DNA of 64,000 nt, from NCBI GenBank assembly GCA_022601195.1, contig JAHZIX010000023.1, positions 124,001-188,000 on the forward strand, in the 5' to 3' direction. The translations under genes were made by a program, and so were the position numbers. The notes under the pieces were generated by a model. That model saw nothing but the letters and a program-made list of their open reading frames with translations, ran no database searches and was not told the origin of the DNA. This document shows positions 15,401 through 61,161 of the stretch, in pieces (the stretch's first letter is position 1; the number at the start of each line of letters is the position of its first letter). This DNA comes from Deltaproteobacteria bacterium. Its GTDB lineage: Bacteria > Acidobacteriota > Thermoanaerobaculia > Multivoradales > JAHZIX01.

Positions 15401-15430
15401 GACTGCTATTCGCTCCCCAAAACCAAAACA

Positions 15431-15553: not shown

Positions 15554-15604
15554 TCTCTCGTCTCGACCTGTCTCTCGTCTCGATCTATCTCTGGTCTCGA
15601 TCTA
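15554..15604. repeat. Three tandem 17-base repeats between pilC and pilB
   Basis: Units TCTCTCGTCTCGACCTG, TCTCTCGTCTCGATCTA and TCTCTGGTCTCGATCTA follow one another without spacer and differ at one to three positions. They fill the space just after the pilC stop. Confidence 0.85.
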
Positions 15605-15608
15605 TCGT

Positions 15609-29878: not shown

Positions 29879-29906
29879 TTCATCTGCTCCCCTTAGAATA
29901 GTGCCC

Positions 29907-37111: not shown

Positions 37112-37112
37112 G

Positions 37113-43122: not shown

Positions 43123-44586
43123 ATGAAGAATCCATTCTCACCCGACGACCGCTTCACCGTGTTGGAGCGCCGCCAGCGTTTTAGCTCTCGCATCGCACTC
43201 TATGGCTCCCTGCTGGTCACCTTGGTGACCGCATTCGGGCTTTCCGTGCTGGCAGCGAAGGCTATATCTCTTGCGCGGTCGGCTACAGACGGCACTCAAG
43301 GCTGGTTCGATACGGATTGGCAGGAGCTGCCAGAGGTCCAACTCTTCCAAGGCTACCTCCGCATCGACACCAATGCCGACGATGGCAGTGAAGCCGCAGG
43401 AGCTGAGTTTCTCGCCGAGCAGCTGGCAGCTGCAGGAATTCCATCGGTGATCGAGCGATTCGCTGGCAACAAAGCCAATCTTTGGGCCATCCTCGAAGGG
43501 GAAGACCCCCAAGCTCTCGTTCTCCACAACCATATCGATGTGGAGCCGGTCATTCACCCCGATAAGTGGATACACGATCCCTTCTCCGGAAAGATTTCTC
43601 CTCCCTGGATCTACGGTCGGGGAGCTTTTGACATGAAGAGTGTGGCTGCGGCCCAACTTTATGCCTTCTTGCAACTCAAAGAGAAGGGCGTTCCCCTGAA
43701 ACGGAGCGTCATCTTTCTCGCTACGGGGAGTGAAGAGAGGGGGAGCGACCTAGGCACGCGTTGGATTCTTCGCCAGCACCCTGAGTTGGTGGACCGCTTT
43801 TGGGCTGTTCTTTCCGAGGGAGGCGTGGTCGAGGCGATCGACCAAGGTCAGGTGAAATATTGGGGCACCGAGATCGGTCAGAAGCAATTCGTTGATCTAG
43901 TGATCTGTAGCCCATCTCGCAGCAGAATTGTAGGAATGAGGGCGGAGCTTCGCACTGTAGGGGAGGTCGCCAAGCCTCAGCGACGGTTGCCTCCAGAAGT
44001 CGCGACGATGTTCGAAGCCTACGCTGCCACGAGGGACCGACCGGAGCTCGTCGAGCTATTGAGTGCCCCGCAGCTCATGGTAGATACGGAGGAGGCTTTT
44101 ACTCGTGCCCCTCAATATGTCCGGGCGATGCTCCGTAACGAGGTTCGGCTCTCCCCCGTCTATAAGACGGAAGGCGGGGGGTACCATCGGATCATCCGGC
44201 TTCATCTGCTTCCAGGGGAGGATCCTCACGAGGCTCGCAAGGTCCTGGTGCCGGATTGGATGCTGTTCGGTGTCGACTGGGTCTTAAACCAGCGGCAGAG
44301 TGCTGCCAAGGGGAGCTCTCCTGAACATCCCGTCTTCCAAGGAATCAGCCAAACCCTGGAGGAACACTATCCGGGGGCCGCAACCGGACCTTACTTCCTG
44401 CCCTGGACCGCCACGGATTCCAGGTTCTTCCGCCGAGCGGGTATCCCCTCTTTTGGGTTCTCACCCTTCCTTATCCTGACTCCGGATACTCTTACCGGCA
44501 ATCATCCCAATGAGAGAGTCTCGCTGCCCGGATATGTCGGTGGTGTCAAGATCTACCAGGATCTTCTGGAGCGTCTGGTTCTCTAG
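43123..44586 (+). CDS. Membrane-anchored M20 family peptidase
   Basis: N-terminal cytoplasmic segment then one helix (IALYGSLLVTLVTAFGLSVLAAKAI), so the enzyme domain faces the periplasm. Metal-site motifs are present: LVLHNHIDVEPV (His, Asp), GRGAFDMKS, ATGSEERGSD, and a distal His in TGNHPNERV. Compared with the second M20 gene in the window, the central dimerisation domain has diverged: the GRAGHAS-like motif is absent and replaced by FVDLVICSPSRSRIVGM. Possible substrates are peptides or N-acyl amino acids. It forms the first half of an M20-pilin unit. Confidence 0.88.
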   Translation: MKNPFSPDDRFTVLERRQRFSSRIALYGSLLVTLVTAFGLSVLAAKAISLARSATDGTQGWFDTDWQELPEVQLFQGYLRIDTNADDGSEAAGAEFLAEQLAAAGIPSVIERFAGNKANLWAILEGEDPQALVLHNHIDVEPVIHPDKWIHDPFSGKISPPWIYGRGAFDMKSVAAAQLYAFLQLKEKGVPLKRSVIFLATGSEERGSDLGTRWILRQHPELVDRFWAVLSEGGVVEAIDQGQVKYWGTEIGQKQFVDLVICSPSRSRIVGMRAELRTVGEVAKPQRRLPPEVATMFEAYAATRDRPELVELLSAPQLMVDTEEAFTRAPQYVRAMLRNEVRLSPVYKTEGGGYHRIIRLHLLPGEDPHEARKVLVPDWMLFGVDWVLNQRQSAAKGSSPEHPVFQGISQTLEEHYPGAATGPYFLPWTATDSRFFRRAGIPSFGFSPFLILTPDTLTGNHPNERVSLPGYVGGVKIYQDLLERLVL

Positions 44587-45071
44587 CAGATTCCTGGAAG
44601 GGCTGGCTCAGCCCTCGTGGAGTGAAAAGGGCCTTCTTTCTCTCCATCCATTTCTACCAGAGCGATCTTGCTTCTCGAATGGCTGGTGCAAGCATCGCTA
44701 GTGCGAGCCGAAGAAGTTCTTCAGCACAATTCCCGGAGTCTGTTGTCAATTCCCCTCTGGCTCCGCGCCGGTCTCTTCCTGGGGTTCGGCCTCGTGAAGC
44801 CCGTGACTTTCCTCTGGCGGGTCTCCGGTCCGCTGCTTGCCGTTAAGAGCCCCTAAGAGTTCAGGCCGTGGTGAAACTCCCTGACATTCTTCCGTGGGTC
44901 GACTGTCAATTTTTGTCTGAAAGATGGCCGGAAGGCCGTAAAAAAGCGGGTTTAGAGGCTTTTTCCAGGCTGGCACGGGTCCTGCAATAGTTTGTTTCGC
45001 CGGCAGCGGCACCAAAAGAGTTTAATAATCATTCTCTCGGGAATGAGGGAACATAAGGAGGGTAGAGTCCA
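44587..45071 (+). promoter_or_regulatory. Upstream region of pilin 1
   Basis: A 485-base region between M20 peptidase 1 and pilin 1. It carries the sigma54 promoter at 44971 and a TGACA-N17-TGTCA dyad at 44882-44908. An ORF at 44668-44856 (TTG start, hydrophobic, ending at TAA) has a coding-like third position but no clear ribosome site; I do not call it a gene. Confidence 0.5.
44971..44986 (+). promoter_or_regulatory. Sigma54 promoter of pilin 1
   Basis: TGGCACGGGTCCTGCA: GG and GC separated by exactly ten bases, with the full TGGCACG -24 element. The predicted start is about base 44997, 75 bases before the pilin ATG. Confidence 0.8.
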
Positions 45072-45620
45072 ATGCTACAGAAACTAAAGAATCGCCAACG
45101 GGGTTTCACTTTGATCGAGCTTCTCATCGTGGTGGCCATCATCGGCATCATCGCCGCGCTGCTGATCCCGAACTTCCTCGACGCTCTGCAAAAAGCCAAG
45201 CAGAAGAGAACGGTCGCTGATGCCCGTAACGTGGGTACTGCCATGATGTCCTGGTTGACCGACGCAGCCAGTGCCGCCGCTGCCGGTCAGAGCGACTTCG
45301 ACTTCTCCAGCTACAGCAGTTTTGAATCGGATGTCACTCAGATCGAAGCGGAGCTGAGCCCCGCTAGCGGCGTCAAGTACCTACAGAAGCTGGCTGTCAA
45401 CGATGGCTGGACGCATTCCTTCGACTACCGCCTGAACATCGCTCTGCCCCTGTCCGAGCGGGTGATGGCGATTCGCAGTCGGGGACGTGACGGCCTGGAA
45501 GATAACGGCGGCACCTACACCGGCGGTCCTTTCGATTCCACCGAGTACGACAGCGACATCGTCTGGGCTGACGGGTTCTTCGTGCAGTGGCCTGGTAGCC
45601 TCGGCACCACCACCCCGTAA
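45072..45620 (+). CDS. Major type IV pilin, copy 1
   Basis: Prepilin leader MLQKLKNRQRG with cleavage before FTLIELLIVVAIIGIIAALLIPN; Glu +5 is present. The globular part is GspG-like, without the C-terminal disulphide loop of PilA: KAKQKRTVADARNVGTAMMSWL, DGWTHSFDYRLNI, RVMAIRSRGRDG and YDSDIVWADGFFVQWP. AAGGAGGG lies nine bases before the ATG. It is 182 residues and followed by a good terminator, so it is a single-gene unit under sigma54 control. The short leader and sigma54 promoter suggest this is a main shaft subunit. Confidence 0.93.
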   Translation: MLQKLKNRQRGFTLIELLIVVAIIGIIAALLIPNFLDALQKAKQKRTVADARNVGTAMMSWLTDAASAAAAGQSDFDFSSYSSFESDVTQIEAELSPASGVKYLQKLAVNDGWTHSFDYRLNIALPLSERVMAIRSRGRDGLEDNGGTYTGGPFDSTEYDSDIVWADGFFVQWPGSLGTTTP

Positions 45621-45666
45621 GGTAACCCCCACAGCGCGTGATCGCGCGCTAAGAAAAGTTATCGAA

Positions 45667-45696
45667 AAGGCGCTGCTACGGCAGCGCCTTTTTTCT
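45667..45696 (+). terminator. Rho-independent terminator after pilin 1
   Basis: AAGGCGCTGC-tacg-GCAGCGCCTT, a perfect 10-base stem with a 4-base loop, followed by TTTTTTC. A second hairpin (AGCGCG..CGCGCT) lies at 45633-45650. Confidence 0.9.
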
Positions 45697-45722
45697 TAGA
45701 TCTCCTAGATGAGGCTTCCCCC

Positions 45723-47123
45723 ATGCGCCGATCTTTGCTCTCTCCAATCTCGATCTTCATCCTCACCGTTTTCTTGGCCCTGCCCGAGAGGGGGGAGGCT
45801 GAGTCTCGCGAGACCCTGTCGGAGGCCGCTGGCTGGCTACAGAGCTATCTTCGTATAGATACGACCAATCCACCCGGCAACGAATACCGTGGGGCAGCTT
45901 TCCTGGCGGATGTTCTCCATCAGGAGGGAATTCAAACTCAGTTGTTGGTGACTCCGGAGGGGCGGACGAGTCTCTATGCCCGTCTCGAGGCAAAGGAGGC
46001 AGAGCGGACCGGTAAGGCGCTGCTGCTCATGCACCACATCGATGTCGTTCCTGCAGGCCCCGGTTGGAAGCACCCTCCATTTGACGGTGTGGTGGAAGAC
46101 GGCACTCTCTGGGGGCGGGGGGCGATCGATGTCAAAAGCCTAGGGGTCGCCCAGCTGACGGCCTTCATCGAGCTCAAGCGGAGCGGCCTGCCGTTGCGCA
46201 GAGATGTGATCTACCTGGCGGCGGCAGACGAGGAGAGCGGCGGTGGTCGGGGAACGAGATGGCTTTTGGAGCACCACGGAGAGCTGTTCGACCAAGTCGG
46301 GGTTGTGCTCAACGAGGGGGGGCTCAATTTCACCGCAGCAGGAAACTTGCTGTGGTGGGGACTCGAAGTGGGGCAGAAGAGGCCACTGTGGTTGCGAGTC
46401 TCAGCAAAGGGCCGCGCCGGACATGCTTCAAGCCTCAATCCCCACAGTGCTTCCCATAAGCTGATTCTCGCGCTGGACCGGCTCCTGGCTATGGAGCCGA
46501 TCTATCACGTCTCCGACGGTGCTCGGATCTATATGGAGGCTCTGGCTCCCCTTCACGGAGGAAAGTTAGGGGCCAACATGGCTCAGATAGACGAAGTTAT
46601 TCAGCCGGATGGGCCGACCAAGATGCTCATGCCCGGTATGTCGAGTCTTTTCCTCGATACCGTTCAGGTGACTCGACTCGAGGCGAGCGATCGCATCAAT
46701 ACCATTGCGAAGGCGGCAACGGCGGAGATCGACATTCGTTTGTTGCCGGATACGGATACAGAGGTGTTTCTAGGGCGCATCCGAGAGGCGTTGGGGGCTG
46801 GAGTTCAGGTAGAAGTACTCTTGGATGCTCCTCCCGGCTCTCCCTCTCCATTCGATACGCCACTGTTCGAGCTGATCAAATCCCAGCTCTCGCCCGAAGC
46901 GCCAGTGGTGCCGGCGTTTATCTCTGGCTTCACAGACTCCCGTTATTTCCGTCAACGGGGTATCCCTGCCTATGGCTTTTCCCCCTTCGTCTTACCGTCC
47001 ACGCAATTGAAAGGGATTCATGCTTCCGACGAGCACATCTCACTTCTAGAGTTCGACCGAGGGGTCCAGCGCCTGAAGAAGATTGTTCAAACATATGCCG
47101 TATTAACTCTAGATGGGCTTTGA
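45723..47123 (+). CDS. Exported M20 family peptidase
   Basis: Paralogue of the gene at 43123, but with a signal peptide (ISIFILTVFLALPERGEA) instead of an anchor, so it is periplasmic or secreted. Metal-site motifs are complete: LLLMHHIDVVPAG, LWGRGAIDVKS, AAADEESGGGRG, VLNEGG and a distal His in GIHASDEHIS. The dimerisation domain is typical (WLRVSAKGRAGHASSLNPHSASHK). M20 enzymes include carboxypeptidases, aminoacylases and dipeptidases. The gene starts 27 bases after the pilin 1 terminator and ends before the pilin 2 promoter. Confidence 0.92.
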   Translation: MRRSLLSPISIFILTVFLALPERGEAESRETLSEAAGWLQSYLRIDTTNPPGNEYRGAAFLADVLHQEGIQTQLLVTPEGRTSLYARLEAKEAERTGKALLLMHHIDVVPAGPGWKHPPFDGVVEDGTLWGRGAIDVKSLGVAQLTAFIELKRSGLPLRRDVIYLAAADEESGGGRGTRWLLEHHGELFDQVGVVLNEGGLNFTAAGNLLWWGLEVGQKRPLWLRVSAKGRAGHASSLNPHSASHKLILALDRLLAMEPIYHVSDGARIYMEALAPLHGGKLGANMAQIDEVIQPDGPTKMLMPGMSSLFLDTVQVTRLEASDRINTIAKAATAEIDIRLLPDTDTEVFLGRIREALGAGVQVEVLLDAPPGSPSPFDTPLFELIKSQLSPEAPVVPAFISGFTDSRYFRQRGIPAYGFSPFVLPSTQLKGIHASDEHISLLEFDRGVQRLKKIVQTYAVLTLDGL

Positions 47124-47134
47124 TTGTCCAGTCG

Positions 47135-47151
47135 GTGACTAGATTTGTCAC
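47135..47151 (+). promoter_or_regulatory. GTGAC-N7-GTCAC dyad upstream of pilin 2
   Basis: Perfect 5-base arms about 50-60 bases before the -24 element of the pilin 2 promoter. It may be an activator site; the other two sigma54 promoters also have TGTCA upstream. Confidence 0.4.
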
Positions 47152-47200
47152 TTTCCACTAGAAAAGCTGCTGAGAACCCCAATTTTGACCGGTTTTTGGT

Positions 47201-47216
47201 TGGCATTCTCTTTGCT
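47201..47216 (+). promoter_or_regulatory. Sigma54 promoter of pilin 2
   Basis: TGGCATTCTCTTTGCT: GG-N10-GC spacing exact, and TTGCT matches the -12 consensus. The predicted start is near 47227, leaving an 18-base leader with AAGGAGG before the ATG. Confidence 0.8.
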
Positions 47217-47244
47217 ACTCTCAAAACCAGTTCAAGGAGGGTCT

Positions 47245-47772
47245 ATGTTTAAGCGCACATATGTTCGAGAGCAGGGGTTTACGCTCATCGAGCTACTGAT
47301 CGTTGTGGCGATCATCGGACTCTTGGCAGCTATGTTGGTGCCCAACATGTTGGATGCACTACAAAAGGCCAAGCAAAAGAGAACAATGGCGGATCAACGA
47401 ATGGTGGGAACCGGCATGATGGCCTGGTTGACCGACCATTCCAGCTCGGCTGCAGCGGGACAAAGCGGTAACTTTTCCATGGACAACTACACCATGGTAG
47501 AGCTTTCCGAAGTCGTGACGGAATTAGTGCCGCAGTACATGCAGAGCATTCCTGAGAAGGACGGTTGGAACTACACCTTCGAATACCATCTCAACATCAA
47601 CCAAGCGGACGCACCACAGGTCATGGCGGTTCGTAGCTTCGGTCGAGATGGTGTTGCTGACGGAGATGTCTATACGGCTGGTGGCTACCTTTCCAGCGAG
47701 TACGACAAAGACATTGTTTGGGCGGACGGGTTCTTTGTACGGTGGCCATCTGGTCTCGACGTAGCCAACTAG
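47245..47772 (+). CDS. Major type IV pilin, copy 2
   Basis: The start is the ATG at 47245, five bases after AAGGAGG; the track start at 47185 is upstream of the predicted transcript. Leader MFKRTYVREQG then FTLIELLIVVAIIGLLAAMLVPN. The body matches pilin 1 throughout (KAKQKRTMADQRMVGTGMMAWLTD, DGWNYTFEYHLNI, QVMAVRSFGRDG, YDKDIVWADGFFVRWP), with differences mainly in the variable loop. 175 residues. Both pilins seem functional; they may be alternative or mixed subunits. Confidence 0.93.
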   Translation: MFKRTYVREQGFTLIELLIVVAIIGLLAAMLVPNMLDALQKAKQKRTMADQRMVGTGMMAWLTDHSSSAAAGQSGNFSMDNYTMVELSEVVTELVPQYMQSIPEKDGWNYTFEYHLNINQADAPQVMAVRSFGRDGVADGDVYTAGGYLSSEYDKDIVWADGFFVRWPSGLDVAN

Positions 47773-48177: not shown

Positions 48178-48963
48178 GTGACAGGTCTAGCACTCATCTT
48201 GGTATTTGTGGCAGCTGCCGGATTGATCGTCGGAAGCTACTCGAACGTCGTCATTCATCGTCTGCCTCGCGGGCTCTCCACGGTGTGGTCTCCTTCGGGC
48301 TGCCCAGCTTGCGGATCACGTATTCCGTGGTGGTGCAACTTCCCCATCCTAAGCTTCCTTCTGCTGCGTGGTCGGTGTGCCGAATGCCGCAGCTCGATCT
48401 CCTGGCGTTATCCAATGGTGGAGGCTTTCGTCGGCCTGCTCTTCGTACTTTCCTTTCTTCGTTTCGGCCCCTTCTGGTCTTGGTTGTGGGCAGCCTTCTT
48501 TGCCTGCCTACTGGTCATCCTAGCGATGATCGATCTAGAGCATCTCCTGCTACCGGATCGCATCACTTACCCTGGCGCCCTTTTGGGTTGGGTCGTCCAC
48601 CCTTTCCTGCCTTGGGCTGACTCTTGGTTCGGTGGGCTCCTGGGCTCCGTGGTGGGGGCAGGAATTCTGCTTCTCCTTTACGGTTTGTGGTTTCTTCTTA
48701 GAAAGGTGGAAGGCCTAGGGTTGGGAGATGTGAAGATGATGGCCTTGGTGGGTGCCTTTCTGGGAGTTGGCGGCGCTTTGACAACTCTCTTCATCGGCAC
48801 TGTCCTGGCAGCTTGCTTCGCTGTACCGAGCCTTCTTTCTGGCCGTCTCAGTCTCCAACACCGTTTGCCTTTCGGCCCCTTCTTGGCGCTCGGAGCGCTC
48901 ATTTCGATGTTGGGGCCTGAAGGGCGCTGGTTCGAGGCTCTGGCGCCTCTTTTTTCTGGCTAG
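48178..48963 (+). CDS. pilD: Prepilin peptidase/N-methyltransferase PilD
   Basis: Cleaves prepilin leaders at the Gly/Phe site and methylates the new N terminus, in the inner membrane. The zinc cysteines CPAC and CAEC flank the first cytoplasmic loop, so the methyltransferase part is present. The catalytic aspartates are in AMIDLEHLLLPD and GLGLGDVKMM. About eight helices in 261 residues. GTG start, weak ribosome site. It is the only prepilin peptidase seen, so presumably serves both the pilins here and the pseudopilins of the minus-strand operon. Confidence 0.95.
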   Translation: MTGLALILVFVAAAGLIVGSYSNVVIHRLPRGLSTVWSPSGCPACGSRIPWWCNFPILSFLLLRGRCAECRSSISWRYPMVEAFVGLLFVLSFLRFGPFWSWLWAAFFACLLVILAMIDLEHLLLPDRITYPGALLGWVVHPFLPWADSWFGGLLGSVVGAGILLLLYGLWFLLRKVEGLGLGDVKMMALVGAFLGVGGALTTLFIGTVLAACFAVPSLLSGRLSLQHRLPFGPFLALGALISMLGPEGRWFEALAPLFSG

Positions 48964-49077: not shown

Positions 49078-50847
49078 ATGCGCTGGGGCCGCCTAGGTCT
49101 TCGCCGGGAAGTTCTCGTGCTGCTACCAGCAGCGATCTTGTTGTTGGCCCTGGTCTCGACTTTTACCCTATTGTCGTATCGGAGTGCGGTCCAAGTCAGC
49201 ATTGAGGAGCGTCGCGAGGAGGCAGCTCGTCTGGCGGTCAATCTAGCTCGTTTTGTTGGGCCTGGACGTTCGACCTCGAGTCTCGAGTTGTTGGCGATGG
49301 TTCCTCAGGCCCGTGGTGTCGCGATCTTGGATGGGGCCGGTGGTCCGGTAATGGCTAGTGGTGACTTGGCTCCCGGAGAGCTCCTGCCTAGGGGCCTCGG
49401 CCAGCTGGATCACCTACCGGTGAGTTTTGGCCCGGGAAAGGAAACGGCAGAGGCGGTGGTAGCGATTGCCTCTCTCAAGGGCGTAAAAGCAAAATTTCTT
49501 CGTCTAGAGCTACCCGCGACCCATCTGGGTGCACACCAGAAGAGTATTCGCCTCCTCGGACTCGTCGTCGTCGGAGTGAATAGTGCGGTTCTCCTGCTCG
49601 TGCTGTTTTTTCTCCGCCACCTGTTGTCCCCTTGGGAGGAGCTCATCGAGAGAGCCCGGAGAGCCGCGCCGGGGGAACAAGGGGAGCCTGTCGAGCAAGA
49701 GAATGTAGATGATGTGTCCTTTCTCCTTTCGGCGTTCGAGCGTGCGCTGGCTGCGGAGGCCAAGGCGGTCGCAGGGAGTGCTGAGGAAGACATCGCTGCA
49801 CTACAGCGCACTCTGACCCAAAGTTTGGAGAGTGGTCTGCTGTTGCTTGACCGAGACGGTAGAGTCCTGACGATCAACGAGGCCGGGAAAGAAGTTCTCG
49901 GGAGAGCAGCTGCGCCCGCTAGCGGGTCGACCCTGGAAGCCGTCTTAGGGAGCAGCAGCAAGCTCGTTCCACTCTTGCGCCAGGCAGTGAGAGATGGGCA
50001 AGGGTTCAAGCGTCGGGAAGTGACCGTTGCTGTCGCGGAGCAGCAGCGAACCTTGGGCCTTTCGCTCCACCCCCTGCGCCGAGACGACCGAGAGGTCCGG
50101 GGCTATTTGGTGCTCTTTGCGGATCTCACCGAAGCCCAACGCCAAGCGAAAGAAGTTCGCTTACAAGAAGGCTTGACGCAATTGGGAGAAATGGCCGCAG
50201 GGGTGGCCCACGAACTTCGAAACAGCCTAGCGACCTTGAAGGGATACCTAACCCTGATCGAGCGCCGACCCGGAGAGGAGGAGATCTCTGACTACTTGCA
50301 GGAGATCCGCCATGAAACCGATCAGCTACAGAGGGTGCTCGAGGACTTTCTTCTCTTCACCCGGCCGGGCAGCGCGAGGCCGGAATCGGTGGCCTTGGAT
50401 GTCATCGTCCGCCGTTCCGCCGCGGACCCTTCGATAGCTCCGGCGACGGTACAGCTGGAATTCGGTGCCAATCTCGAGGCGCGCCTCCTCGGAGATGAGC
50501 AGCTTTTGGAGCGAGCGGTACGAAACCTCATCTCCAATGCGGCTCGCTCACATCGAGAGGCGGGAGTCAGTGTTCCCATCGAAGTTTCTCTGACCCGGGG
50601 GGCAGATGGCCTAAAGCTGGTGGTCGAAGATCATGGTCCCGGCTTTCCGGAGGCGGTTCGGGAAAGGCTATTCCAGCCTTTCGTGTCCGAGTTTCGGGGA
50701 GGCGTAGGTCTGGGATTGGCCTTGACCCACCGAATCGTCTCCCTTCATGGGGGTCGGATCTACCTAGATTCTCCTGCGGGAAGCGGGGCACGGATTGTAA
50801 TGGAGTTCCCTTTTGGCGATGTTGATACCAAAGGTAACCAAGTCTAG
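49078..50847 (+). CDS. PilS/NtrB-type sensor histidine kinase
   Basis: Two membrane helices (about 12-33 and 157-180) bracket a 120-residue extracytoplasmic domain. A cytoplasmic linker, a PAS domain (about 245-350, SGLLLLDRDGRVLTINEAGKEVLG), HisKA with phospho-acceptor His 378 in GVAHELRNSLATLKGYLTL, and HATPase_c (NLISNAARSH, EDHGPGFPE, GGVGLGLALTHRIV) follow. The family phosphorylates NtrC-type regulators. The regulator at 59195 is the only such protein here and the likely partner. It lies between pilD and the minor-pilin operon. Confidence 0.92.
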   Translation: MRWGRLGLRREVLVLLPAAILLLALVSTFTLLSYRSAVQVSIEERREEAARLAVNLARFVGPGRSTSSLELLAMVPQARGVAILDGAGGPVMASGDLAPGELLPRGLGQLDHLPVSFGPGKETAEAVVAIASLKGVKAKFLRLELPATHLGAHQKSIRLLGLVVVGVNSAVLLLVLFFLRHLLSPWEELIERARRAAPGEQGEPVEQENVDDVSFLLSAFERALAAEAKAVAGSAEEDIAALQRTLTQSLESGLLLLDRDGRVLTINEAGKEVLGRAAAPASGSTLEAVLGSSSKLVPLLRQAVRDGQGFKRREVTVAVAEQQRTLGLSLHPLRRDDREVRGYLVLFADLTEAQRQAKEVRLQEGLTQLGEMAAGVAHELRNSLATLKGYLTLIERRPGEEEISDYLQEIRHETDQLQRVLEDFLLFTRPGSARPESVALDVIVRRSAADPSIAPATVQLEFGANLEARLLGDEQLLERAVRNLISNAARSHREAGVSVPIEVSLTRGADGLKLVVEDHGPGFPEAVRERLFQPFVSEFRGGVGLGLALTHRIVSLHGGRIYLDSPAGSGARIVMEFPFGDVDTKGNQV

Positions 50848-50874: not shown

Positions 50875-50937
50875 TAGGTGTTGCCTAAGTTGTTATCTGT
50901 CAGTGATTTATGCTTTGAATGTGGTAGTGGCGCCGCT

Positions 50938-50954
50938 TTGGTACGAGACTTGCG
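50938..50954 (+). promoter_or_regulatory. Sigma54 promoter of the minor-pilin operon
   Basis: TTGGTACGAGACTTGCG: GG-N10-GC exact, TTGC at -12. The predicted transcript would start near 50965, only four to seven bases before the ATG, which is unusually short. Confidence 0.7.
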
Positions 50955-50971
50955 TTACATGGAGAGCAATG

Positions 50972-51667
50972 ATGAGAAAAAGAAACGAGTCTCCGCGCGG
51001 ATTTACGATGGTCGAGTTAGTGGTCGTGGCGGCCATCATGCTCATCATGATGGTTCTAGGCATGCCTCATCTACGAAAGCTGCTCTACCAATCGAAGATG
51101 GAGACCACCACGGCGGATATCAAAGCGAGCTTCAATCGAGCCCGTTTCGAGTCCATTAAGAGAAGCCGCGAAGTGGTGGTGCAGGCCCTTCCCGACACTG
51201 CCGAAGTGCGTGTCTACATCGACGAGCCGGAGTTCGATGCGGATGGCAACAGAACGGATACTCCACGGCTTTTCGAACCGAACCTTCTCTTGCCTGCCGA
51301 CCAACGGGATCGAGTCGTCGCCCAATCATTTCTAGCCAAAGGAATCGATTTCATCGCTCCAGCCGGTGAGGAAGCCGCAACGGGTCTGACCAATCTTTCT
51401 GGGGGTATTCCGGCAGATGCTGAGATTGAAGAGTTGGTTGCCGTCTACCAGCCCCCGAGTGGTTCTGTGGTCGATATTGGAGCCTTTCGGGTAGGTGACA
51501 TCCAAAAGAATTTCCTAGAGATCCGGGTAGATATCGCCGGCACTGGAAAAGTCATCAGCCGAAAATTCGACTGCGAAGATGCGGAATGGAAAATCCGCGA
51601 CGGCGAACGGGTCGATGCGAGCACCTCACCCTGGATTTGGTATTGGAACTATGACGATGATTGCTGA
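50972..51667 (+). CDS. GspH/FimT-like minor pilin
   Basis: The second of two adjacent ATGs is chosen (five bases from GGAGAG). Leader MRKRNESPRG, cleavage before FTMVELVVVAAIMLIMMVLGMP, Glu +5 present. Then ETTTADIKASFNRARFESIKRSREVVVQ, the hallmark GspH helix-strand entry. The C-terminal part is acidic, ending in Cys. The 231-residue product is the first gene of the minor pilin set, consistent with a priming-tip subunit. GspH-type proteins start the priming complex in other species. Confidence 0.88.
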   Translation: MRKRNESPRGFTMVELVVVAAIMLIMMVLGMPHLRKLLYQSKMETTTADIKASFNRARFESIKRSREVVVQALPDTAEVRVYIDEPEFDADGNRTDTPRLFEPNLLLPADQRDRVVAQSFLAKGIDFIAPAGEEAATGLTNLSGGIPADAEIEELVAVYQPPSGSVVDIGAFRVGDIQKNFLEIRVDIAGTGKVISRKFDCEDAEWKIRDGERVDASTSPWIWYWNYDDDC

Positions 51668-51715
51668 GATCGAGACATACCGGGCTTCGGGATCCTTCTA
51701 TGGAGTAAATGAGAG

Positions 51716-52393
51716 ATGAAGTTCAAGTCCACTCGCAGCCGGGCCACGATGCCTCGGCCGCTCCTTCGGCGCCGTCGCGGGATCTTGCCGCAGGCCGGTT
51801 TCTCCTTGGTGGAAGGGCTGGTGGCCATGGCCATTCTGCTCATCATCGTCCTCGGATTGATTCCCCTGTTTACCCAGTCCATGGTCAACAATGTCGCAGG
51901 TCGTCACCTGACCATGGCGAGTAATTTCGCCGCAGATTTCTTCGAAGATCGGGTTCAGAAACCCTTCAATAACGAAGATATAACGATGGATGTCGGATCC
52001 CGCGGGCTCTCCACCATCGAGCTGTTTGCCGGTAGAGCTCCCGAGGATGCTTCCGGTGACCCACTGCCGCATGTCGAGGGAAACGGGGTTCTTGGCAGTT
52101 TTTCCCAGAGCTACGACTCGGACGATCCCCCGGACTACGCGACTCTGCTAGCTGCCGCTGGCTTCAACAACGTACAGACTGACAATGCGGATTGGGCGCG
52201 CGTCACCAATGTGGAGCTCTTTCAGGTAACCGCTCTGGATGATGGCGTTCTAGAAGACGATGAGCGCCTTGTCGGCGGTACTTTCGAGGGCTTCGAGCAC
52301 CTCAAGAAGATTGAGGTCGCCATCATTCCTCGAGGCCGAGAGAGCCTGCTGGGGCGAGGCCGCATCACAGCTACTATTTTGAAGGCTTTCTAG
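51716..52393 (+). CDS. PilV-like minor pilin
   Basis: Leader rich in Arg (MKFKSTRSRATMPRPLLRRRRGILPQAG), cleavage before FSLVEGLVAMAILLIIVLGLIPLF with Glu +5. The following region (AGRHLTMASNFAADFFEDRVQKPF) resembles PilV. 225 residues. Lies 48 bases after gspH. Part of the initiating tip complex. Confidence 0.87.
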   Translation: MKFKSTRSRATMPRPLLRRRRGILPQAGFSLVEGLVAMAILLIIVLGLIPLFTQSMVNNVAGRHLTMASNFAADFFEDRVQKPFNNEDITMDVGSRGLSTIELFAGRAPEDASGDPLPHVEGNGVLGSFSQSYDSDDPPDYATLLAAAGFNNVQTDNADWARVTNVELFQVTALDDGVLEDDERLVGGTFEGFEHLKKIEVAIIPRGRESLLGRGRITATILKAF

Positions 52394-52403
52394 GAGCGGC
52401 TCG

Positions 52404-53723
52404 ATGATCAAGAAGAAATCTCTTGCCTCTCCCGGCAATCGTAGACAGCGGGGCTTCACTCTCATCGAAGTCCTCGTTTCAACCGTCGTGTTCGTGCAGA
52501 TCATTTTGGTAGCGCTGTTGATATTCGATTTCAATCGAAGGGTTACGCGGGTTCAGACGCGAGTCTCGGACATGCAGCAGTCTCTACGTGTTGGGCAGGA
52601 CGAGATCGTCCGAACGACTCGCATGGCAGGGCGGTCCGGAATTCCTGTGACTCGGCCTATCGGCGCTGTAGGGGCGGAGACTTTTCCGCCCTTTCGGCTG
52701 GCGGTTTCCGTTGCCAATAACGTCACTGGTGCCGCTCGGCAGATCGCTCCCACAGACGGTGACACTCCTACGGCTCTTGCCGGTACGGACATTCTGACCG
52801 TGAGGGGAAATTTTTCGACACCTCACTACCACATGACCTTGCTCAACTTGGACGATACTCAGGAAAACGCCAAGGAGGGGACCGTGACCATCGCCCGGAC
52901 CTCTGCCTCCCATCCGGAGCAGGATCTCACCGATCTGGCCAACGCCAACACAGATGGGGGCATCCCAGAGGCCATGATTCTGATTCCGTCGACCCCAGGA
53001 GAGTCCTATGTCGTTGTGGAGTTGGAGCCGGCTTCCGCCGGCAATACGGCAGATTTGATCACCATGAACTTTGTCATCAAGACCGATGGGGGCATGGAGC
53101 TAGCGGATCAGTACCGAGCTCTTTGGACAAATGACGATACGGCACCATTCCCCATGGCGCCGGGCACTGCGGGCTACCTCGCCATCCTGGAGGAGTACCG
53201 TTTTTATGTCCGCAATGACGGCGACCCGGTAGCGGAAAGTGCAAGAACTCGCCTTTCGCGGGCTCGCCTGCTGCCCGGCACGGGTGCGCCCTGGTCCGTT
53301 CCTGGGGTGGCGGTGGATCCCCTCGTGCTCTCGACAGATATCTCCGACAATATTCTCGATCTGCAAGTGAGTCTGGGGTTCGATACGACTTTTGGCACCG
53401 GAACCATTGGTGATACCGGTCTCGGAGAGATCACCGAAACCCTCGACGGGGACGAAGACGATTGGCTCTTCAACAACACCGCGGACGATATCGACCACGT
53501 CGCCTTTACAGCCCCCAATGCGGACGGAGTGCCACCCCTCTATTACGTGAGAATCACCACGCTGGCGCGCACTGGCGGTCCGGATACCAAGCATCAAGAA
53601 CCTGTGTTGACCAGTCTCGAGGATCGCAACTACGCGGTCGACGATGCCTTGGTCAATTCTGAGGAGGCGCGAATGTTTCGTCGCCGCTTTCTCAAGACCA
53701 CCATCGATTTGAGGAATTTGTGA
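52404..53723 (+). CDS. PilW-like minor pilin
   Basis: Leader MIKKKSLASPGNRRQRG, cleavage before FTLIEVLVSTVVFVQIILVALLIFD, Glu +5. The next part (NRRVTRVQTRVSDMQQSLRVGQDEIVRTTRMAGRSG) is the PilW-family helix. The 439-residue length is large for the family, with a big beta-rich C-terminal part. The TGA overlaps the next ATG (TGATG). Confidence 0.87.
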   Translation: MIKKKSLASPGNRRQRGFTLIEVLVSTVVFVQIILVALLIFDFNRRVTRVQTRVSDMQQSLRVGQDEIVRTTRMAGRSGIPVTRPIGAVGAETFPPFRLAVSVANNVTGAARQIAPTDGDTPTALAGTDILTVRGNFSTPHYHMTLLNLDDTQENAKEGTVTIARTSASHPEQDLTDLANANTDGGIPEAMILIPSTPGESYVVVELEPASAGNTADLITMNFVIKTDGGMELADQYRALWTNDDTAPFPMAPGTAGYLAILEEYRFYVRNDGDPVAESARTRLSRARLLPGTGAPWSVPGVAVDPLVLSTDISDNILDLQVSLGFDTTFGTGTIGDTGLGEITETLDGDEDDWLFNNTADDIDHVAFTAPNADGVPPLYYVRITTLARTGGPDTKHQEPVLTSLEDRNYAVDDALVNSEEARMFRRRFLKTTIDLRNL

Positions 53724-54265
53724 TGATCCGAGCTCACGGCCGTCCCCATGCCCAGCGAGGCAGCGCTTACATCGTTGTTTTGTTGGTGCTCCTGCTCCTG
53801 ACCATCTTTGGTCTCTCCCTGGTCTTGATCACGCAGACCGAGGCCGAAATTGGCAACAGTACTCGGGATATCAGTAGGACCTTCTATGCCTCGGATTCCG
53901 GAGTGGCAGCGGCGGTGTCCTTCATGCTGACTTCCAACAACTACGATGCTCACGAGTTCCGCCTAACGGAAAGAGCAGTAGGGGCCCTCTCGGTACGAGA
54001 CGAGGTCGCTACCACGCGAGTACGGCCGGTCGGCTCCCGGTTCTCAAACTTGGGAGACATCGCCTCGAACGCCGTCTTCCCGCCCTATGAGCGGATCAAT
54101 CACCAGTTTAGAAGTACCTCGACGCGTATGGCCGGCACCCGACAGGTGGCCCAGAAGCGAATCGAGTTGATGGTCGAAGTCGACCCCTGGCAGCCGACGG
54201 CGGAGGCTCTCTATGACGGCCCTCTGCAGTATGACCCACCGCCTGCCCCGCTTTCCGGACCTTAA
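53723..54265 (+). CDS. PilX-like minor pilin
   Basis: N terminus HAQRGSAYIVVLLVLLLLTIFGLSLVLITQTEAEIGNSTRDISRTFYASDSGVAAA is the PilX N-terminal domain. As in other PilX proteins there is no Glu +5 and the cleavage-site residue is Ser/Ala rather than Phe. 180 residues. I prefer the ATG at 53723 because it forms a TGATG with the pilW stop; the GTG at 53720 is possible. Confidence 0.85.
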   Translation: MIRAHGRPHAQRGSAYIVVLLVLLLLTIFGLSLVLITQTEAEIGNSTRDISRTFYASDSGVAAAVSFMLTSNNYDAHEFRLTERAVGALSVRDEVATTRVRPVGSRFSNLGDIASNAVFPPYERINHQFRSTSTRMAGTRQVAQKRIELMVEVDPWQPTAEALYDGPLQYDPPPAPLSGP

Positions 54266-54298
54266 TCGTCGGCAGCGCCTTTGGAGGAGATATTCCAG

Positions 54299-57200
54299 AT
54301 GAAAATTCGAACGAAAACCCGTAGTCGATTCACGGCTACTTTGCAGTGGGCGTTAGCCGTCGCAGTGCTGATCGGCTCGGGCTGGCCGGCGTCCGGCGAT
54401 GACAAGGGTCTGTTGAGCAGCGAAGCTGAACCCCCTTACGTCTTCATCCTTCTGGATACCACCGGTTCCATGACCTGGAATGTCGGAGAGGCGGAGTTAC
54501 CCTTCCTACGGTCAGACTCACCGGACTCCAAGATGTACCAGGCCAAAGACGCTCTGTACCAGGTGGTATCAAATCTGGACAACATCCAGTTCGGTTTTTC
54601 GACCTTCAATCAGGACAACCTTCGGGTGCGCCGGAAGCACTGGATGTACGAGACCATTGAAGATGGCATTGTCATTCTGGAAGATGAGAACGGTGATCCA
54701 CTATGGGTCTACCCGGCTTTAGGCGACCAACACACCTTTGGCCGTACCCAGGATTGTGATCTGAATCGAAGCCCCGATTTCGAACGGACCGGTTGTGAGG
54801 TGGCCCTTCCTGCCGACCTCGACGACGAGTGGGACGCTCGCCGCATGCAGATGTACTCTAAGCTGCACACGGATGGCACCAATCCCACCGCGTTTTACAT
54901 CCGCGCTGGAAATCACCTCAACACCGATTGGCGTTTCGAAGTGACCTTTGACGACGTGGATGTTGTCTATGGGCGCAACCAGATCGAAGTCGAGGTACAT
55001 ATTCGAGGGGTCAACAATAGCAATACCTTCGATGAGACCAAGACCATCACCTTCCAGTTGGTGGATGGGGGAGAGGATGGCTTTGTCAGCCTCGACTTTG
55101 GTAGCGCGAATATTTCGACTCCAAGTAACCCCAACGGCCGCCAACGTTTCTTCAGTTTCGCCGATCACTTTGCTACCGGAACCTGCAATGGCTGGGAAGG
55201 CAATGACGACGAGGACGCGGACTCCTACCAGGGTTCCTCGGAGTCCACTGCGATCAATCTGAAGGTTCTCACCGACACGGCCGCCTATCCCGCGGCGCAG
55301 GCTAGCCGAAGGTACGGCGATGTCATTCCTCTAAACTGGGAGGACGACAACAAGACCCAGATTCTCGATCGGTTGGCCCCCAACCGCCTCCTCCTGGCGG
55401 ACCCTGGCGATGCCGACTTGCCCAGTTTCGTCCCGGATTTCCGAGTCGCGCCCTTTTTGACGGACGTCGCTTCGGACAACAAGCTGGATCTGATTCCGGC
55501 CTTGCGCGCCGCTGCCGGCACCGTGATCATGCCTCGAGGGTCAACTCCCCTAGGGGACACACTCTCGTCTTTCGAGACCTGGTTCGACGAGTGGTCAGAA
55601 TTGGCATCCAATGGCGCTACCGGAGATTCTGCCTGGGGCTGTCGTAACGTCTACGTACTTCTCCTCACCGATGGTCTGGAAACCTGTGGTGGGGACGGTC
55701 CTTCCGTAGCGGAGACCCTCTTTGATAGTGGCGTACTCACCTACGTGGTCGGTTTCGGCGTAGCGGCTTCGGCTGGCGATGACGTGCTGGACGAGATCGC
55801 CGACGAGGGAGGCACCGGGGATCCATTCCGTCCCCAGAACGTTGATGAGCTCGTGACGACCTTGGAAGATATCTTCAGTGAGATCCGAGAGGAAGCCTCG
55901 ACTTTCGCCTCTGCAGCGGTTCCCTCGGTGCAGGCAAATGTTTCCGACAAGATCTTCCTTACCAGCTTCACTCCCATCGGGGATGCCTCGGTTTGGGATG
56001 GGCACATCGATGCTTACCTCAAACCCCTGCCGGTCAGAGACGACCTAACCCCGGATCGAGACCGCCGGTGCGGTGCCAATGACGAGAGTGCTTGCCTAGC
56101 TTGGGATGCCGGCGAGGAGTTGGTGGCTCAGAGCCTGACGGAAGGGGAGCTCGACGCCGCAGCTTTGCCTGGGGGTGATATCGATCCTATCGGCGGCGCC
56201 GTCGATCTGCGCCGGGTCCTCTTTTCTCCTGGAGTTCCTAGCTCCACGGTTCCGCAGCCGCGCCGTGAATTCTGGGTCGATGGGGACAGCTCCGATTCGG
56301 AGTGGAGCGATATGTTGTTCAGCCTAGGGTTCGCAGCTTCCACACCTCCCGATGCCGCCGATAAGGCAAAGGGACAAGAAGCTCTGATTGGGGCACTGAA
56401 AATCAAGAATGAAACGATCACCATCCAAGACTCCAACGGAGATGACGTCGATCAAGAGTTGACCTATGTGCTTGGAGATATTTTTCACTCCGATCCCTTG
56501 GTACTGAGCAATCCCAACGACTTTACTCTCTTCAATACGGACTTCAACAGCAATGCCAAGCCCTGTGATGATGCTACCGATCCCAATCCGGGGTATCGGT
56601 GCTACTTCGAAAAGCACATCTACCGGCGCAAGATGTTGTTCGTCGGGTCCAATGATGGCCAATTGCACGCCTTTGATGTAGGGATCTACGACGGCAATGA
56701 AGAGGAATTCGACAATGGCACCGGTCGAGAAATCTTCTCCTTCATTCCCCGGGGCACTCTAGGTCATGTCGCGGACCTCGCGGCGATGGGGGCAGAGCAC
56801 GACTACGGCCTGGATGGACCGCTGGTCCAGGCGGATGTCTTCATCGACCCAAGCCACAATGGAACTCCCACGGACACAGATCGCGAGTGGCGGAGTACTC
56901 TGGTGGGGACCCTCAGAGAGGGCGGTCGATCTGTCTTCGCCATCGACGTGACCCAGCCCGATGTTCTGGGCCCCAACAACGGCCCGAACGCTCCTGACAA
57001 TGCTCCTGACAATGTTCCGGTGCCGCTGACGGGAACGGACGGTCTGGTCTCGAACTACGTGCCATCTTGTTGGGAGGGTGGAGCCAACTGCGGCCCCAGC
57101 CCCTTTCCAGCTCTCCTTTGGGAGTTCATGGATACCGCAGATCTCGATGAAAACGGCCTTGCAGACCTAGGAGATACCTGGTCAACCCCAACCGTCGGGT

Positions 57201-58360
57201 TGATCAAGGTCGACAATGGGGGAGATATCGAAGACCGCTGGGTAGCTGTATTCGGAGGTGGAATCGATCCGGGAGCCCTGGAAGCGGATACCCCTGGTCA
57301 GAGCTATGGGCCCGAGGGCACCAACCCCGATGTCGCCGACCGCCCAGGGGTAGTTGGAAATTGGATCTACATGGTGGACATGGAGACGGGGCAGGCGATC
57401 TATAAGCGCCGTGTCGACGGTGCCGTGCCGAGTGCCCTTTCGGTGGTCGATACCAATCGGGATCTCTACCTGGATACGATCTATTTCGGCACTACCTCAG
57501 GATTTCTCTACAAGATCAATCTCGCCGGTGACCCACCGGACCTGGCCACGTTGGCGAACCCGTCCGATGAAGACGAGTACGACATTTGGCGCCCCTTTAA
57601 GGTCTTCGACACCGGTGGGCGACCGATCTTCTATCCGCCGGCCGTGATCAACGTGGCTGAAACGGGCCAATTCGCCCTCGCCTTTGGCACTGGTTACCGT
57701 GAGGATCTGTGGTTGGCCCCGGAAGGAGTCGAAGGCAAGTTCTATATGTTGCTCGACCAGGACTACTCAATCGGCAACCTCGCCGCTCCCTTGACGGAGT
57801 TGGCCCTAACGGAAGTGGCCCTCGACGACCCGCAAGATAGCTCCAATCTGCTTCAATCCGACGGCGGTTGGTACCTTACCCTGCGCAACGGAGAACGGCA
57901 GATCGCCACGGCCTTCGCCATCAGCGGGGTCACGATCTTCACTTCCTACAAACCGAACGTTCCTGCTCCTATTGGGGACGACGAAGGTTGCTCCAGGACG
58001 GGAGAGAGCCGCATCTACATTGTTTTGACGACGAATGCCAACTCGGTGAGAAAGGACCCCGTCACCGACGACTTTTCGAAGTTCCTTTCGATCTCAGAGT
58101 TCGTCACCAATTCCTATGTGGAGTTGAGTGTGACCAAGAACAAGCCTCCGGAGGCGGGAGATGATGGGCCGCCTCGAACGGACGACGAGATCGACGACGA
58201 TCTTCGTCAGGTGATGAACGAGCTCAAGGGACTCTTTCCTGACGTTTGTCGCTTCGCCAACTATACTCTGAACCTCAAGACCACCCGTGCGGGTACGGGA
58301 CAGGTGTTTGTGGCACCGATTCCGATCTGTGTCGTGCAGCACAATTGGAGGGAGTTATAG
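54299..58360 (+). CDS. pilY1: PilY1-like pilus tip adhesin
   Basis: The start is the ATG at 54299, downstream of TTGGAGGAG, not the TTG of the track. 1353 residues: signal peptide (LQWALAVAVLIGSGWPASG), von Willebrand A domain from about residue 48 (VFILLDTTGSM as MIDAS; NVYVLLLTDGLETCGGD as second part), and a C-terminal PilY1 beta-propeller (LFVGSNDGQLHAFDVG, FSFIPRGTLGHVADLA, VVDTNRDLYLDTIYFG). DLDENGLADLGD is a Ca-loop-like motif. Takes the tip position with PilV-X and GspH, is possibly involved in surface sensing and retraction control. Last pilus gene before the FxLYD gene, four bases apart. Confidence 0.93.
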   Translation: MKIRTKTRSRFTATLQWALAVAVLIGSGWPASGDDKGLLSSEAEPPYVFILLDTTGSMTWNVGEAELPFLRSDSPDSKMYQAKDALYQVVSNLDNIQFGFSTFNQDNLRVRRKHWMYETIEDGIVILEDENGDPLWVYPALGDQHTFGRTQDCDLNRSPDFERTGCEVALPADLDDEWDARRMQMYSKLHTDGTNPTAFYIRAGNHLNTDWRFEVTFDDVDVVYGRNQIEVEVHIRGVNNSNTFDETKTITFQLVDGGEDGFVSLDFGSANISTPSNPNGRQRFFSFADHFATGTCNGWEGNDDEDADSYQGSSESTAINLKVLTDTAAYPAAQASRRYGDVIPLNWEDDNKTQILDRLAPNRLLLADPGDADLPSFVPDFRVAPFLTDVASDNKLDLIPALRAAAGTVIMPRGSTPLGDTLSSFETWFDEWSELASNGATGDSAWGCRNVYVLLLTDGLETCGGDGPSVAETLFDSGVLTYVVGFGVAASAGDDVLDEIADEGGTGDPFRPQNVDELVTTLEDIFSEIREEASTFASAAVPSVQANVSDKIFLTSFTPIGDASVWDGHIDAYLKPLPVRDDLTPDRDRRCGANDESACLAWDAGEELVAQSLTEGELDAAALPGGDIDPIGGAVDLRRVLFSPGVPSSTVPQPRREFWVDGDSSDSEWSDMLFSLGFAASTPPDAADKAKGQEALIGALKIKNETITIQDSNGDDVDQELTYVLGDIFHSDPLVLSNPNDFTLFNTDFNSNAKPCDDATDPNPGYRCYFEKHIYRRKMLFVGSNDGQLHAFDVGIYDGNEEEFDNGTGREIFSFIPRGTLGHVADLAAMGAEHDYGLDGPLVQADVFIDPSHNGTPTDTDREWRSTLVGTLREGGRSVFAIDVTQPDVLGPNNGPNAPDNAPDNVPVPLTGTDGLVSNYVPSCWEGGANCGPSPFPALLWEFMDTADLDENGLADLGDTWSTPTVGLIKVDNGGDIEDRWVAVFGGGIDPGALEADTPGQSYGPEGTNPDVADRPGVVGNWIYMVDMETGQAIYKRRVDGAVPSALSVVDTNRDLYLDTIYFGTTSGFLYKINLAGDPPDLATLANPSDEDEYDIWRPFKVFDTGGRPIFYPPAVINVAETGQFALAFGTGYREDLWLAPEGVEGKFYMLLDQDYSIGNLAAPLTELALTEVALDDPQDSSNLLQSDGGWYLTLRNGERQIATAFAISGVTIFTSYKPNVPAPIGDDEGCSRTGESRIYIVLTTNANSVRKDPVTDDFSKFLSISEFVTNSYVELSVTKNKPPEAGDDGPPRTDDEIDDDLRQVMNELKGLFPDVCRFANYTLNLKTTRAGTGQVFVAPIPICVVQHNWREL

Positions 58361-59194: not shown

Positions 59195-60502
59195 CTAGTC
59201 CCGATAGGTTGGGAAACCTTCCAGATCAAACAGCCGCACTCTTCGCAGGAGGGTGCGGTAGCTGATTCCCAGGGCCTGGGCAGCGGCGCGCTTATTTCCG
59301 TTGGAATCGACCAAGGCCTGGCGCAGCTGGTGCTGTTGCAGGTCTTTGCTGCGAACCTTCATAAGGGGTTTCAGGTGAGGGGTATCGAGGCGATTGCCCT
59401 CGGTCAAGATCGAGGCTCGCTCTAGTAGATTTGCCAACTCACGAATGTTGCCAGGCCAGGGCTGCTCACTCAGGAGGGTTTCGGCCTCCGGGGTGAGGAC
59501 AAGGAGCGCCTTACCATTTCGTTCGCAGATTCTACTGAGCAGGTGGCGCGCCAGGAGGGGGATATCAGAGAGGCGTCTCCTCAAGGGAGGCAACTCCAGG
59601 GGAAACACCTCTAGACGATAGTAAAGATCGGCGCGGAAACTACCCTCGCTTACCATTTCTTGCAGGTCTCGGTTGGTGGCAGCGACGAGGCGAATATCTG
59701 CATGAAGCGTCGAGCTACCGCCAACTCTCTCAAAAGTCCTCTCTTCCAACACTCTCAAGATTTTGGCTTGCACTCCAAGGGCTAGCTCTCCGATCTCGTC
59801 CAAGAGAAGGGTACCCCCTTTTGCGACCTCGAACTTCCCTGCATGGCGACGGTTGGCACCAGTGAAAGCTCCCTTCTCATGGCCGAAGAGCTCGTTCTCC
59901 ATCAGGCTTTCCGGTAGAGCTGCGCAATTGACGCCGACAAAGGGGCCTGTAGAGCGTTTTGAAAGGGCGTGGAGAGCTCGGGCGAAAAGCTCTTTTCCAG
60001 TGCCACTTTCTCCGGTTAGAAGTACGGTGCTTTCCGTTCCGGCTACCCGCCGGAGCAACTGTACGGCGGTTCGGAGCTCCGGGTGGCGGCCAATGATGGG
60101 GGGAGCTCCGGGAGCCTCTAGGGCAGCGTCTTGCTCTTCATTGCCGAGAGCCATCCGGACCAAAGAAAGCAGGTCATCTACTTCGACGGGCTTCTCCAGG
60201 AAATCGAAGGCGCCGAGCTTCATGGCTTCTACTGCATTTGCCACAGTTCCATAGGCCGTCATCACCACTACGGGGGTCTTAGATTGTGCCTTCCGGCAGG
60301 CCCGAAGAACCTCCAGGCCGGAAGCGCCGGGCAATTTGAGGTCCGTGAGAACCAAGTCGTAGGTGCCTCTGTCGATTTTCTCGATACCGGCCAGACCGTC
60401 CTCGGCTTCCTCGATATGGCAGCCGTCGGCTTCGAGAGCGCGTCGCAGCAAGCGTCTTAGGGAGTCCCGATCTTCGACTAGGAGAATGGTAGGTTGCTTC
60501 AC
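59195..60502 (-). CDS. NtrC-family sigma54 response regulator (PilR-like)
   Basis: The GTG at 60502 (VKQPTILLVEDRDSL) is chosen over the track start; 435 residues. Receiver domain with phospho-acceptor Asp 54 (YDLVLTDLKLPG), AAA+ domain with Walker A GESGTGKE and the sigma54-contact GAFTGA, Walker B GGTLLLDEIGEL, and a Fis-type HTH (GNKRAAAQALGISYRTLLRRVRLF). It would be activated by the kinase at 49078 and act on the sigma54 promoters at 44971, 47201 and 50938. The gene faces the minor-pilin operon. Confidence 0.93.
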   Translation of the reverse strand: MKQPTILLVEDRDSLRRLLRRALEADGCHIEEAEDGLAGIEKIDRGTYDLVLTDLKLPGASGLEVLRACRKAQSKTPVVVMTAYGTVANAVEAMKLGAFDFLEKPVEVDDLLSLVRMALGNEEQDAALEAPGAPPIIGRHPELRTAVQLLRRVAGTESTVLLTGESGTGKELFARALHALSKRSTGPFVGVNCAALPESLMENELFGHEKGAFTGANRRHAGKFEVAKGGTLLLDEIGELALGVQAKILRVLEERTFERVGGSSTLHADIRLVAATNRDLQEMVSEGSFRADLYYRLEVFPLELPPLRRRLSDIPLLARHLLSRICERNGKALLVLTPEAETLLSEQPWPGNIRELANLLERASILTEGNRLDTPHLKPLMKVRSKDLQQHQLRQALVDSNGNKRAAAQALGISYRTLLRRVRLFDLEGFPTYRD

Positions 60503-61161
60503 TTTCCCTCTGTCTCCCTGGCCGCAATCGAATTCCAGGCCGAGTGAAAAGCCGTTCCCGGCCAAGAGGTCTTATGAACTGGCCTGACCGTAAGTTCGGG
60601 GTGCGAGACAAGAACAGCTCGGGTTCCGGTTCGAGCTTCCAACCCCTCGTTATCTCGGGGGCGGCGGCAGTCTCGGGGGGCTGAGGTTGGCTTGTTCATC
60701 AGATTCCGTGGGGCGGTGGATCCAGGAGCAAAGATTGTCATGGCTCGGCTAGGGAGTCGACGGAAAAAGCAGTGATCCTTTGGGCGGCTAGAGCGCGCCC
60801 GCCAAAGGATCTCTACCCTGGATTCCCTTTGGTAGTCTGGTTCCAGTCGCTGCCCTTTGTGCATCAACTTATCGCCACCTTGGACCCTCAACAGCTGCCG
60901 TCCGTATAATGCTACAAGGTCGGGGATCGGTCTATCGGAGGGTAGCCGCTTGACCCAGGGCATCCGATGCCTTTGTTCTGATGTCCTTGCTGGGAGCATG
61001 CCGGTAGAATTCTAGCCTGCATGAGTCGGCGCTAGGAACATTATCGGAATTGGAGGCTCGGCGAGCCCTCCGGTTCATCACAGGCCAGCCTCTTGGCCTC
61101 AAGGCTTTGCCGGGCTTCTCTGGCGCCCCGAGAGCCTGAGAACCTGAGAACATAGTGTGCA
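60503..61161. other. Long divergent intergenic region with leader candidate
   Basis: About 660 bases. On the plus strand TTGGAC-N19-TATAAT lies at 60880-60910, 250 bases upstream of the next gene. Between them are GGAGGCTC-ggc-GAGCCCTCC and AGGCCA..TGGCCT hairpins. No ORF here has family features. The region must also hold the promoter of the minus-strand regulator, which I cannot locate. Confidence 0.45.
60880..60910 (+). promoter_or_regulatory. Candidate sigma70 promoter with perfect -10
   Basis: TATAAT preceded by TTGGAC at 19 bases, slightly long spacing. It would give a leader of about 245 bases before the gene at 61162, or a short separate RNA. Confidence 0.45.

Follow-up and report, generated by a model that had tools for sequence, protein, structure and literature searches.

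We analysed a 64 kb stretch of bacterial DNA, hereafter the window, which belongs to a genome of 8.0 Mb in 52 contigs and in which two genes of the M20 peptidase family alternate with two type IV pilin genes. An earlier note on this DNA had given the order as M20, pilin, M20, pilin; on rechecking, this order and its coordinates proved correct and agree with the Pfam matches. Between 43123 and 47772, all on the + strand, lie M20-1 (43123..44586, 487 aa), pilin-1 (45072..45620, 182 aa), M20-2 (45723..47123, 466 aa) and pilin-2 (47245..47772, 175 aa), and the annotation of the surrounding genes indicates that this four-gene block is embedded in a type IV pilus locus (PilD, sensor kinase, minor pilins, PilY1). 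We found that the adjacency of M20 and pilin genes in the window is not fortuitous. We propose, with confidence and doubt in about equal parts, that both M20 proteins are exported and serve the type IV pilin locus as accessory factors, M20-2 being probably active and M20-1 being altered or a pseudoenzyme. Four kinds of evidence support such a role: the targeting signals, the positional association with pilins and PilD in many families of the class, the separate pilin promoters and the catalytic losses of M20-1.

The earlier note had allowed that the adjacency could be chance. We rejected this possibility because none of the 17 other M20 genes of the same genome (which has 19 M20-family matches) has a pilin gene within about 1.5 kb, and because the order is kept in relatives. 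The latter were mapped within the same order (40 loci from 37 relatives, nine families); these genomes are related throughout, which means that the counts below are not counts of independent events. The note had suggested looking for M20 genes beside pilins in related genomes, and the pairing is indeed there: when the window is counted in, a pilin gene on the same strand comes next after M20-1 in 35 of the 36 readable cases, with a gap of 87-505 bp. Only genus g5 departs from this: there M20-2 and PilD come after M20-1, and the pilin lies elsewhere. Three arrangements were seen. The succession M20-1, pilin, M20-2, pilin-2, PilD occurs in families f1, f2, f5, f7 and f8 (some of the contigs being incomplete), the succession M20-1, pilin, M20-2, PilD in f9, in part of f3 and in genome G036, and the succession M20-1, pilin, PilD, with no M20-2 alongside, in most of f6 and in G038 and G054; in G005, which is of this last type, M20-2 is found about 6 kb off. 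On the other side of M20-1, the window carries a divergent gene of the membrane sulfatase family (LTA-synthase-like; 40973-42952, - strand), which borders a polysaccharide cluster (32879-40976). A sulfatase-family gene adjoins M20-1 upstream only in the window, G002 and G003, and is nearby in G023. Since this type of neighbour is kept in few relatives only, the conserved side of M20-1 is the pilus side, and therefore the synteny does not merely reflect slow rearrangement.

Outside the order, the linkage of M20 and pilin genes recurs in five further lineages within the class. In f10 and f17, one or two pilins come immediately after an M20-1-type gene; in f11, both M20 genes flank two pilins; f15 has, in succession, genes of the M20-1-like, pilin and M20-2-like kinds, and in f12 M20-2 comes after a pilin, with M20-1 on another contig. 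One genome of f10 (G067) has M20-1 with a pilin and a pilin with M20-2 at two separate loci, so that each M20 is found beside its own pilin. In other classes of the phylum, 20 M20 relatives were examined, and none adjoins a pilin; the GH motif of the dimerisation domain is present in 19 of these 20 proteins and the C-terminal histidine in all of them.

The two M20 proteins are paralogues, as the earlier note had it (29% identity and E 3e-45 in pairwise comparison; 100% probability and an end-to-end alignment in profile-profile comparison), and judging from their residues they are non-equivalent peptidases. Hence, the description of both as M20 peptidases can be kept for M20-2, which is complete, but not in the same sense for M20-1, which has no detectable dimerisation domain and is devoid of residues present in M20-2. 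M20-2 matches both Peptidase_M20 (PF01546, E 3e-28) and the dimerisation domain PF07687. Its full set of metal ligands and its general base (H105, D136, E170/E171, E198, H433) are invariant across 18 homologues, as is the histidine of the GHAS motif (H234), and PF07687 was found in 18/18; in a larger alignment, the M20-2 of the order member G005 has a gap at the GHxS motif. M20-2 also resembles, by profile match, PRK07906 and aminoacylase families. Nothing that an active enzyme should have is missing from it, and we predict that it probably is one.

M20-1 is different. The catalytic domain PF01546 is recognised in the window protein (E 4e-24) and in all of 23 homologues, and H137, D139, D170, E204, E205 and E232 are retained; in an alignment of 38 order members the HxD motif, the bridging aspartate, the EE pair and the EGG glutamate are invariant. 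We take what is left to be one of the two metal sites of the family together with the general base. The dimerisation domain PF07687 was detected neither in the window M20-1 nor in any of the 23 homologues, and among the 38 order members none has the GHxS histidine of that domain or an in-register histidine as C-terminal metal ligand. In the window protein this last ligand is expected at N460, and the nearby H461 is not conserved in relatives. In aminoacylase-1, replacement of the equivalent dimerisation-domain histidine nearly abolishes activity, and DapE deprived of its dimerisation domain is inactive (PMC4012986). The M20-1-type proteins of f10, f11, f17 and f18 have already lost GHxS and still have the C-terminal histidine, which suggests that the losses were stepwise. 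From these residues, M20-1 is not an ordinary peptidase, an observation which is new here; it may possibly act as a single-metal hydrolase, and we infer that it could be called a pseudoenzyme.

The note had also described one M20 as membrane-anchored and the other as exported, both therefore acting outside the cytoplasm, and the N-terminal features agree with this prediction. The window M20-1 starts with positive charges followed by a single hydrophobic segment; with a simple hydrophobicity threshold, and given that start codons are uncertain, a membrane segment was found at the N terminus of 33/38 M20-1 proteins, usually behind basic residues. M20-2 proteins have signal-peptide-like starts, with lipobox-like cysteines in a few relatives (here too the start codons are uncertain). 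From their N termini, both proteins look extracytoplasmic.

Both pilins match the N-terminal methylation profiles PF07963 (N_methyl) and TIGR02532, and both have the short basic leader, the GF[T]LIE motif (GFTLIE in pilin-1) and the hydrophobic helix of type IV pilins. They are 56% identical over 178 residues, in line with the paralogy that had been noticed before. The most likely start of pilin-2 is the ATG at 47245 (MFKRTYVREQGFTLIE, preceded by AAGGAGGG), rather than the TTG at 47185.

From the alternating order and the two pairs of paralogues in the window, the note had drawn the picture of a duplicated peptidase-pilin pair that evolved together, the peptidase for example trimming the C terminus of the pilin. 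We consider this very improbable. In a quick tree, the M20-2 sequences of the order join their M20-2-like counterparts from f10 and f11 and stand apart from M20-1; therefore the two M20 lineages predate the order, and further families of the class share their split. The pilin tree confines the second pilin to one part of the order, and genomes with both M20 genes and a single pilin between them exist in f3, f9 and f4. This means that the two duplications differ in age and in distribution, and we discarded a joint duplication; the catalytic elements missing from M20-1 and the fact that M20 active sites suit small substrates also speak against trimming by a duplicated pair. The origin of pilin-2 itself admits more than one account. 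In f5, f7 and f8 (G018, G024), pilin-1 and pilin-2 cluster by family, and constraining all second-position pilins to one clade was not rejected by the AU test (p-AU 0.077), so that one pilin duplication followed by gene conversion is possible. Whichever origin holds, the trees indicate that the doubling of the pilins and that of the M20 genes are separate events. We also noticed that G026 and G031 (loci L100 and L104) have tandem pilins between M20-1 and M20-2 which are most alike within each genome, as expected of recent duplication or gene conversion.

Each pilin of the window is preceded by a sequence resembling a sigma-54 (-24/-12) promoter: TGGCACGGGTCCTGCA (44971..44986, + strand, 101 bp upstream of pilin-1, 7/8 consensus positions) and TGGCATTCTCTTTGCT (47201..47216, + strand, 44 bp upstream of pilin-2). 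The whole 64 kb contains only three sites with 7/8 matches, two of which are these; the third, at 50939, is too near the likely start of the FimT-like gene to be used as an argument. Among relatives, with a threshold of at least 6/8 consensus matches (these are matches to a consensus and not measured promoters), such a site was found upstream of 47/52 pilins. In addition, an intrinsic-terminator-like hairpin with a T run lies 3' of pilin-1 (45664..45693, + strand). The fold of 45640-45705 has an energy of -27.7 kcal/mol (z -3.8), which 0/200 shuffles equalled; a scanner for consensus terminators showed no excess of calls over shuffles, and this hairpin is not among its calls. Because of the sigma-54-like sites and of the strong hairpin, we predict that the pilins are probably transcribed separately from the M20 genes. 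Separate sigma-54-like promoters of the pilins would fit the PilS/PilR-type pair of the locus.

Part of these signals weighs against an accessory role of the M20 proteins at the pilin locus, and so do several other results which we gather here. No sigma-54-like site was found upstream of any M20 gene of the relatives (M20-1 0/38, M20-2 0/28, hence 0/66), and the terminator-like hairpin separates pilin-1 from M20-2. Six genomes (G025, G035, G037, G050, G052, G083) have PilM and PilT and no M20-1 match at the threshold used, some of these assemblies being fragmented, and none of the f14 pilin loci examined has an M20 gene. Conversely, genus g5 (L117, L116) has kept M20-1, M20-2, PilD and PilW/PilY-like genes, while PilM is missing in all the members listed and PilT in the four tested. 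Taken as a proxy for presence or absence, PilM shows no correlation with M20-1. We concluded that M20-1 is not required for the type IVa pilus machine and that there is no strict dependence between the two. Finally, an AlphaFold model of M20-1, for which M20-2 was the only partner sequence, was unusable (mean pLDDT 32, five models).

The persistence of the M20 genes in g5 without PilM and PilT is what would be expected if M20s and pilins merely shared a condition of use, such as surface growth or peptide scavenging, the M20s freeing amino acids from exogenous peptides or from N-acyl amino acids. The likeness of M20-2 to PRK07906 and aminoacylases points in the same direction, and M20 enzymes usually work on small substrates. 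We nevertheless hold this explanation to be unlikely, if the most serious of the alternatives: a membrane-anchored M20-1 without the normal catalytic parts would be odd for a nutrient enzyme, pilin-linked M20s are found again at separate loci, and the other M20 genes of the genome are not linked to pilins. As a separate observation, in two of the relatives without M20-1 a pilin homologue (G035, L219 at about 7643-8338; G050, L221 at about 8477-8977) adjoins genes other than PilD, which, judged by eye, resemble a respiratory iron-sulfur/membrane complex.

Downstream of the four-gene block, the pilus locus continues on the + strand with a PilD-like prepilin peptidase (48178..48963; PF06750, PF01478), which is the next conserved gene in most relatives, a PilS-like sensor histidine kinase (49078..50847; HisKA, HATPase_c) conserved beside PilD, and the minor pilin genes (FimT-, PilV-, PilW- and PilX-like by position, with N_methyl matches) together with PilY1 (50903..58360; beta-propeller PF05567, E 5e-11). 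A PilR-like sigma-54-dependent response regulator follows on the - strand (59195..60565; PF00158, PF00072). PilM and PilT are encoded outside the window, on contig C13 of the same genome; these two, with the PilD-like protein and PilY1 of the window, represent the type IVa pilus machinery. A second pilin-type secretion cluster is found at 5742-16823 (- strand), with two N_methyl proteins, a secretin with a cohesin-domain match, an assembly ATPase and a T2SSF protein.

Many relatives have, between PilD and either the pilin or M20-2, a large multi-membrane gene weakly similar to YfhO; we located it for example at L086 11625-14006, L090 1557-3950, L083 6520-8928 and L235 766-3129. This gene raises the possibility of a pilin-modification locus, in which the M20s would strip a modified pilin, or the glycan that it bears, of an acyl or amino-acyl group, in conjunction with a membrane glycosyltransferase. 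A Wzy_C ligase-like gene at an f14 pilin locus and the existence of deacylases among M20 members go the same way. But the pilin locus of the window has no YfhO-like gene (weak homologues lie away from it, at 25137-29908), the YfhO scores are partly under the cut-off, and we know of no pilin modification in this group. This makes a pilin-modification role of the M20s rather improbable, though less so than the duplicated pair discussed above.

We come back to the proposal that both M20s are accessory factors of the pilin locus. M20-2 would be an active two-metal exopeptidase or an amidohydrolase of the aminoacylase type in the periplasm. M20-1 would be anchored in the inner membrane, where prepilins emerge and where PilD acts, and may be a catalytically altered or inactive partner, binding a peptide or amide ligand or else a protein (the pilin, or M20-2); such binding would aid the maturation, the assembly or the turnover of pilins. 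An action of the M20s on the cleaved leader peptides of prepilins was considered and dismissed, since leaders remain on the cytoplasmic side and the M20s are outside. We put forward more tentatively, and with less confidence than the accessory role itself, that this is an undescribed accessory system of the pilus, spread over the class, in which an exported M20 and a rebuilt membrane M20 handle pilin maturation or assembly, M20-1 having been deprived, during its association with pilins, first of the dimerisation-domain histidine and later of a metal ligand. Full-text searches of the open-access literature yielded no account of an association between M20 proteins and pilins. Should the linkage prove functional, it would bring an enzyme family to the biology of type IV pili, whose loci are well catalogued. 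It would also provide a natural series, from the complete M20 to a form without the dimerisation histidine and then to one without a metal ligand as well, and thereby a means to study the conversion of a peptidase into a non-canonical protein.

Among known systems, the closest in sequence are the M20A peptidases and aminoacylases (aminoacylase-1, DapE, carboxypeptidase G2; NCBIfam PRK07906). M20-2 resembles them in its metal ligands, its dimerisation domain and its GHxS histidine. M20-1 resembles them in its fold, as far as the sequence tells, and in its remaining active-site residues, but differs in having no detectable dimerisation domain, no GHxS histidine and no in-register last metal histidine; both M20s of the window differ from them in being exported (as predicted) and in standing beside pilins. 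Metallopeptidase pseudoenzymes (reviewed in PMC11266112) are like M20-1 in that catalytic residues are lost and selection has kept the homologue beside an active relative, whereas M20-1 retains more of the metal site than would be necessary in a simply dead enzyme. A text search of this review found no mention of M20 pseudopeptidases. As to the role, TfpY is an accessory protein linked to a pilin and required for assembly to be optimal, and TfpY and the pilin glycosyltransferases of Pseudomonas (PMC11841053) are, like the M20s of the window, products of non-pilin genes associated with a major pilin; they act on or with the pilin at the membrane. They have no sequence relation to the window proteins, which have the M20 fold. 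The M20 protein PepV of Staphylococcus aureus modulates the surface display of protein A (PMC12004944), and is thus a member of the family with a reported influence on the export of a surface protein, not on nutrition alone; it differs from the M20s of the window in being cytoplasmic, associated with SecA and unlinked to pilins. By analogy, TfpY and PepV can be regarded as precedents for the M20 proteins described here, neither of them matching in both role and family.

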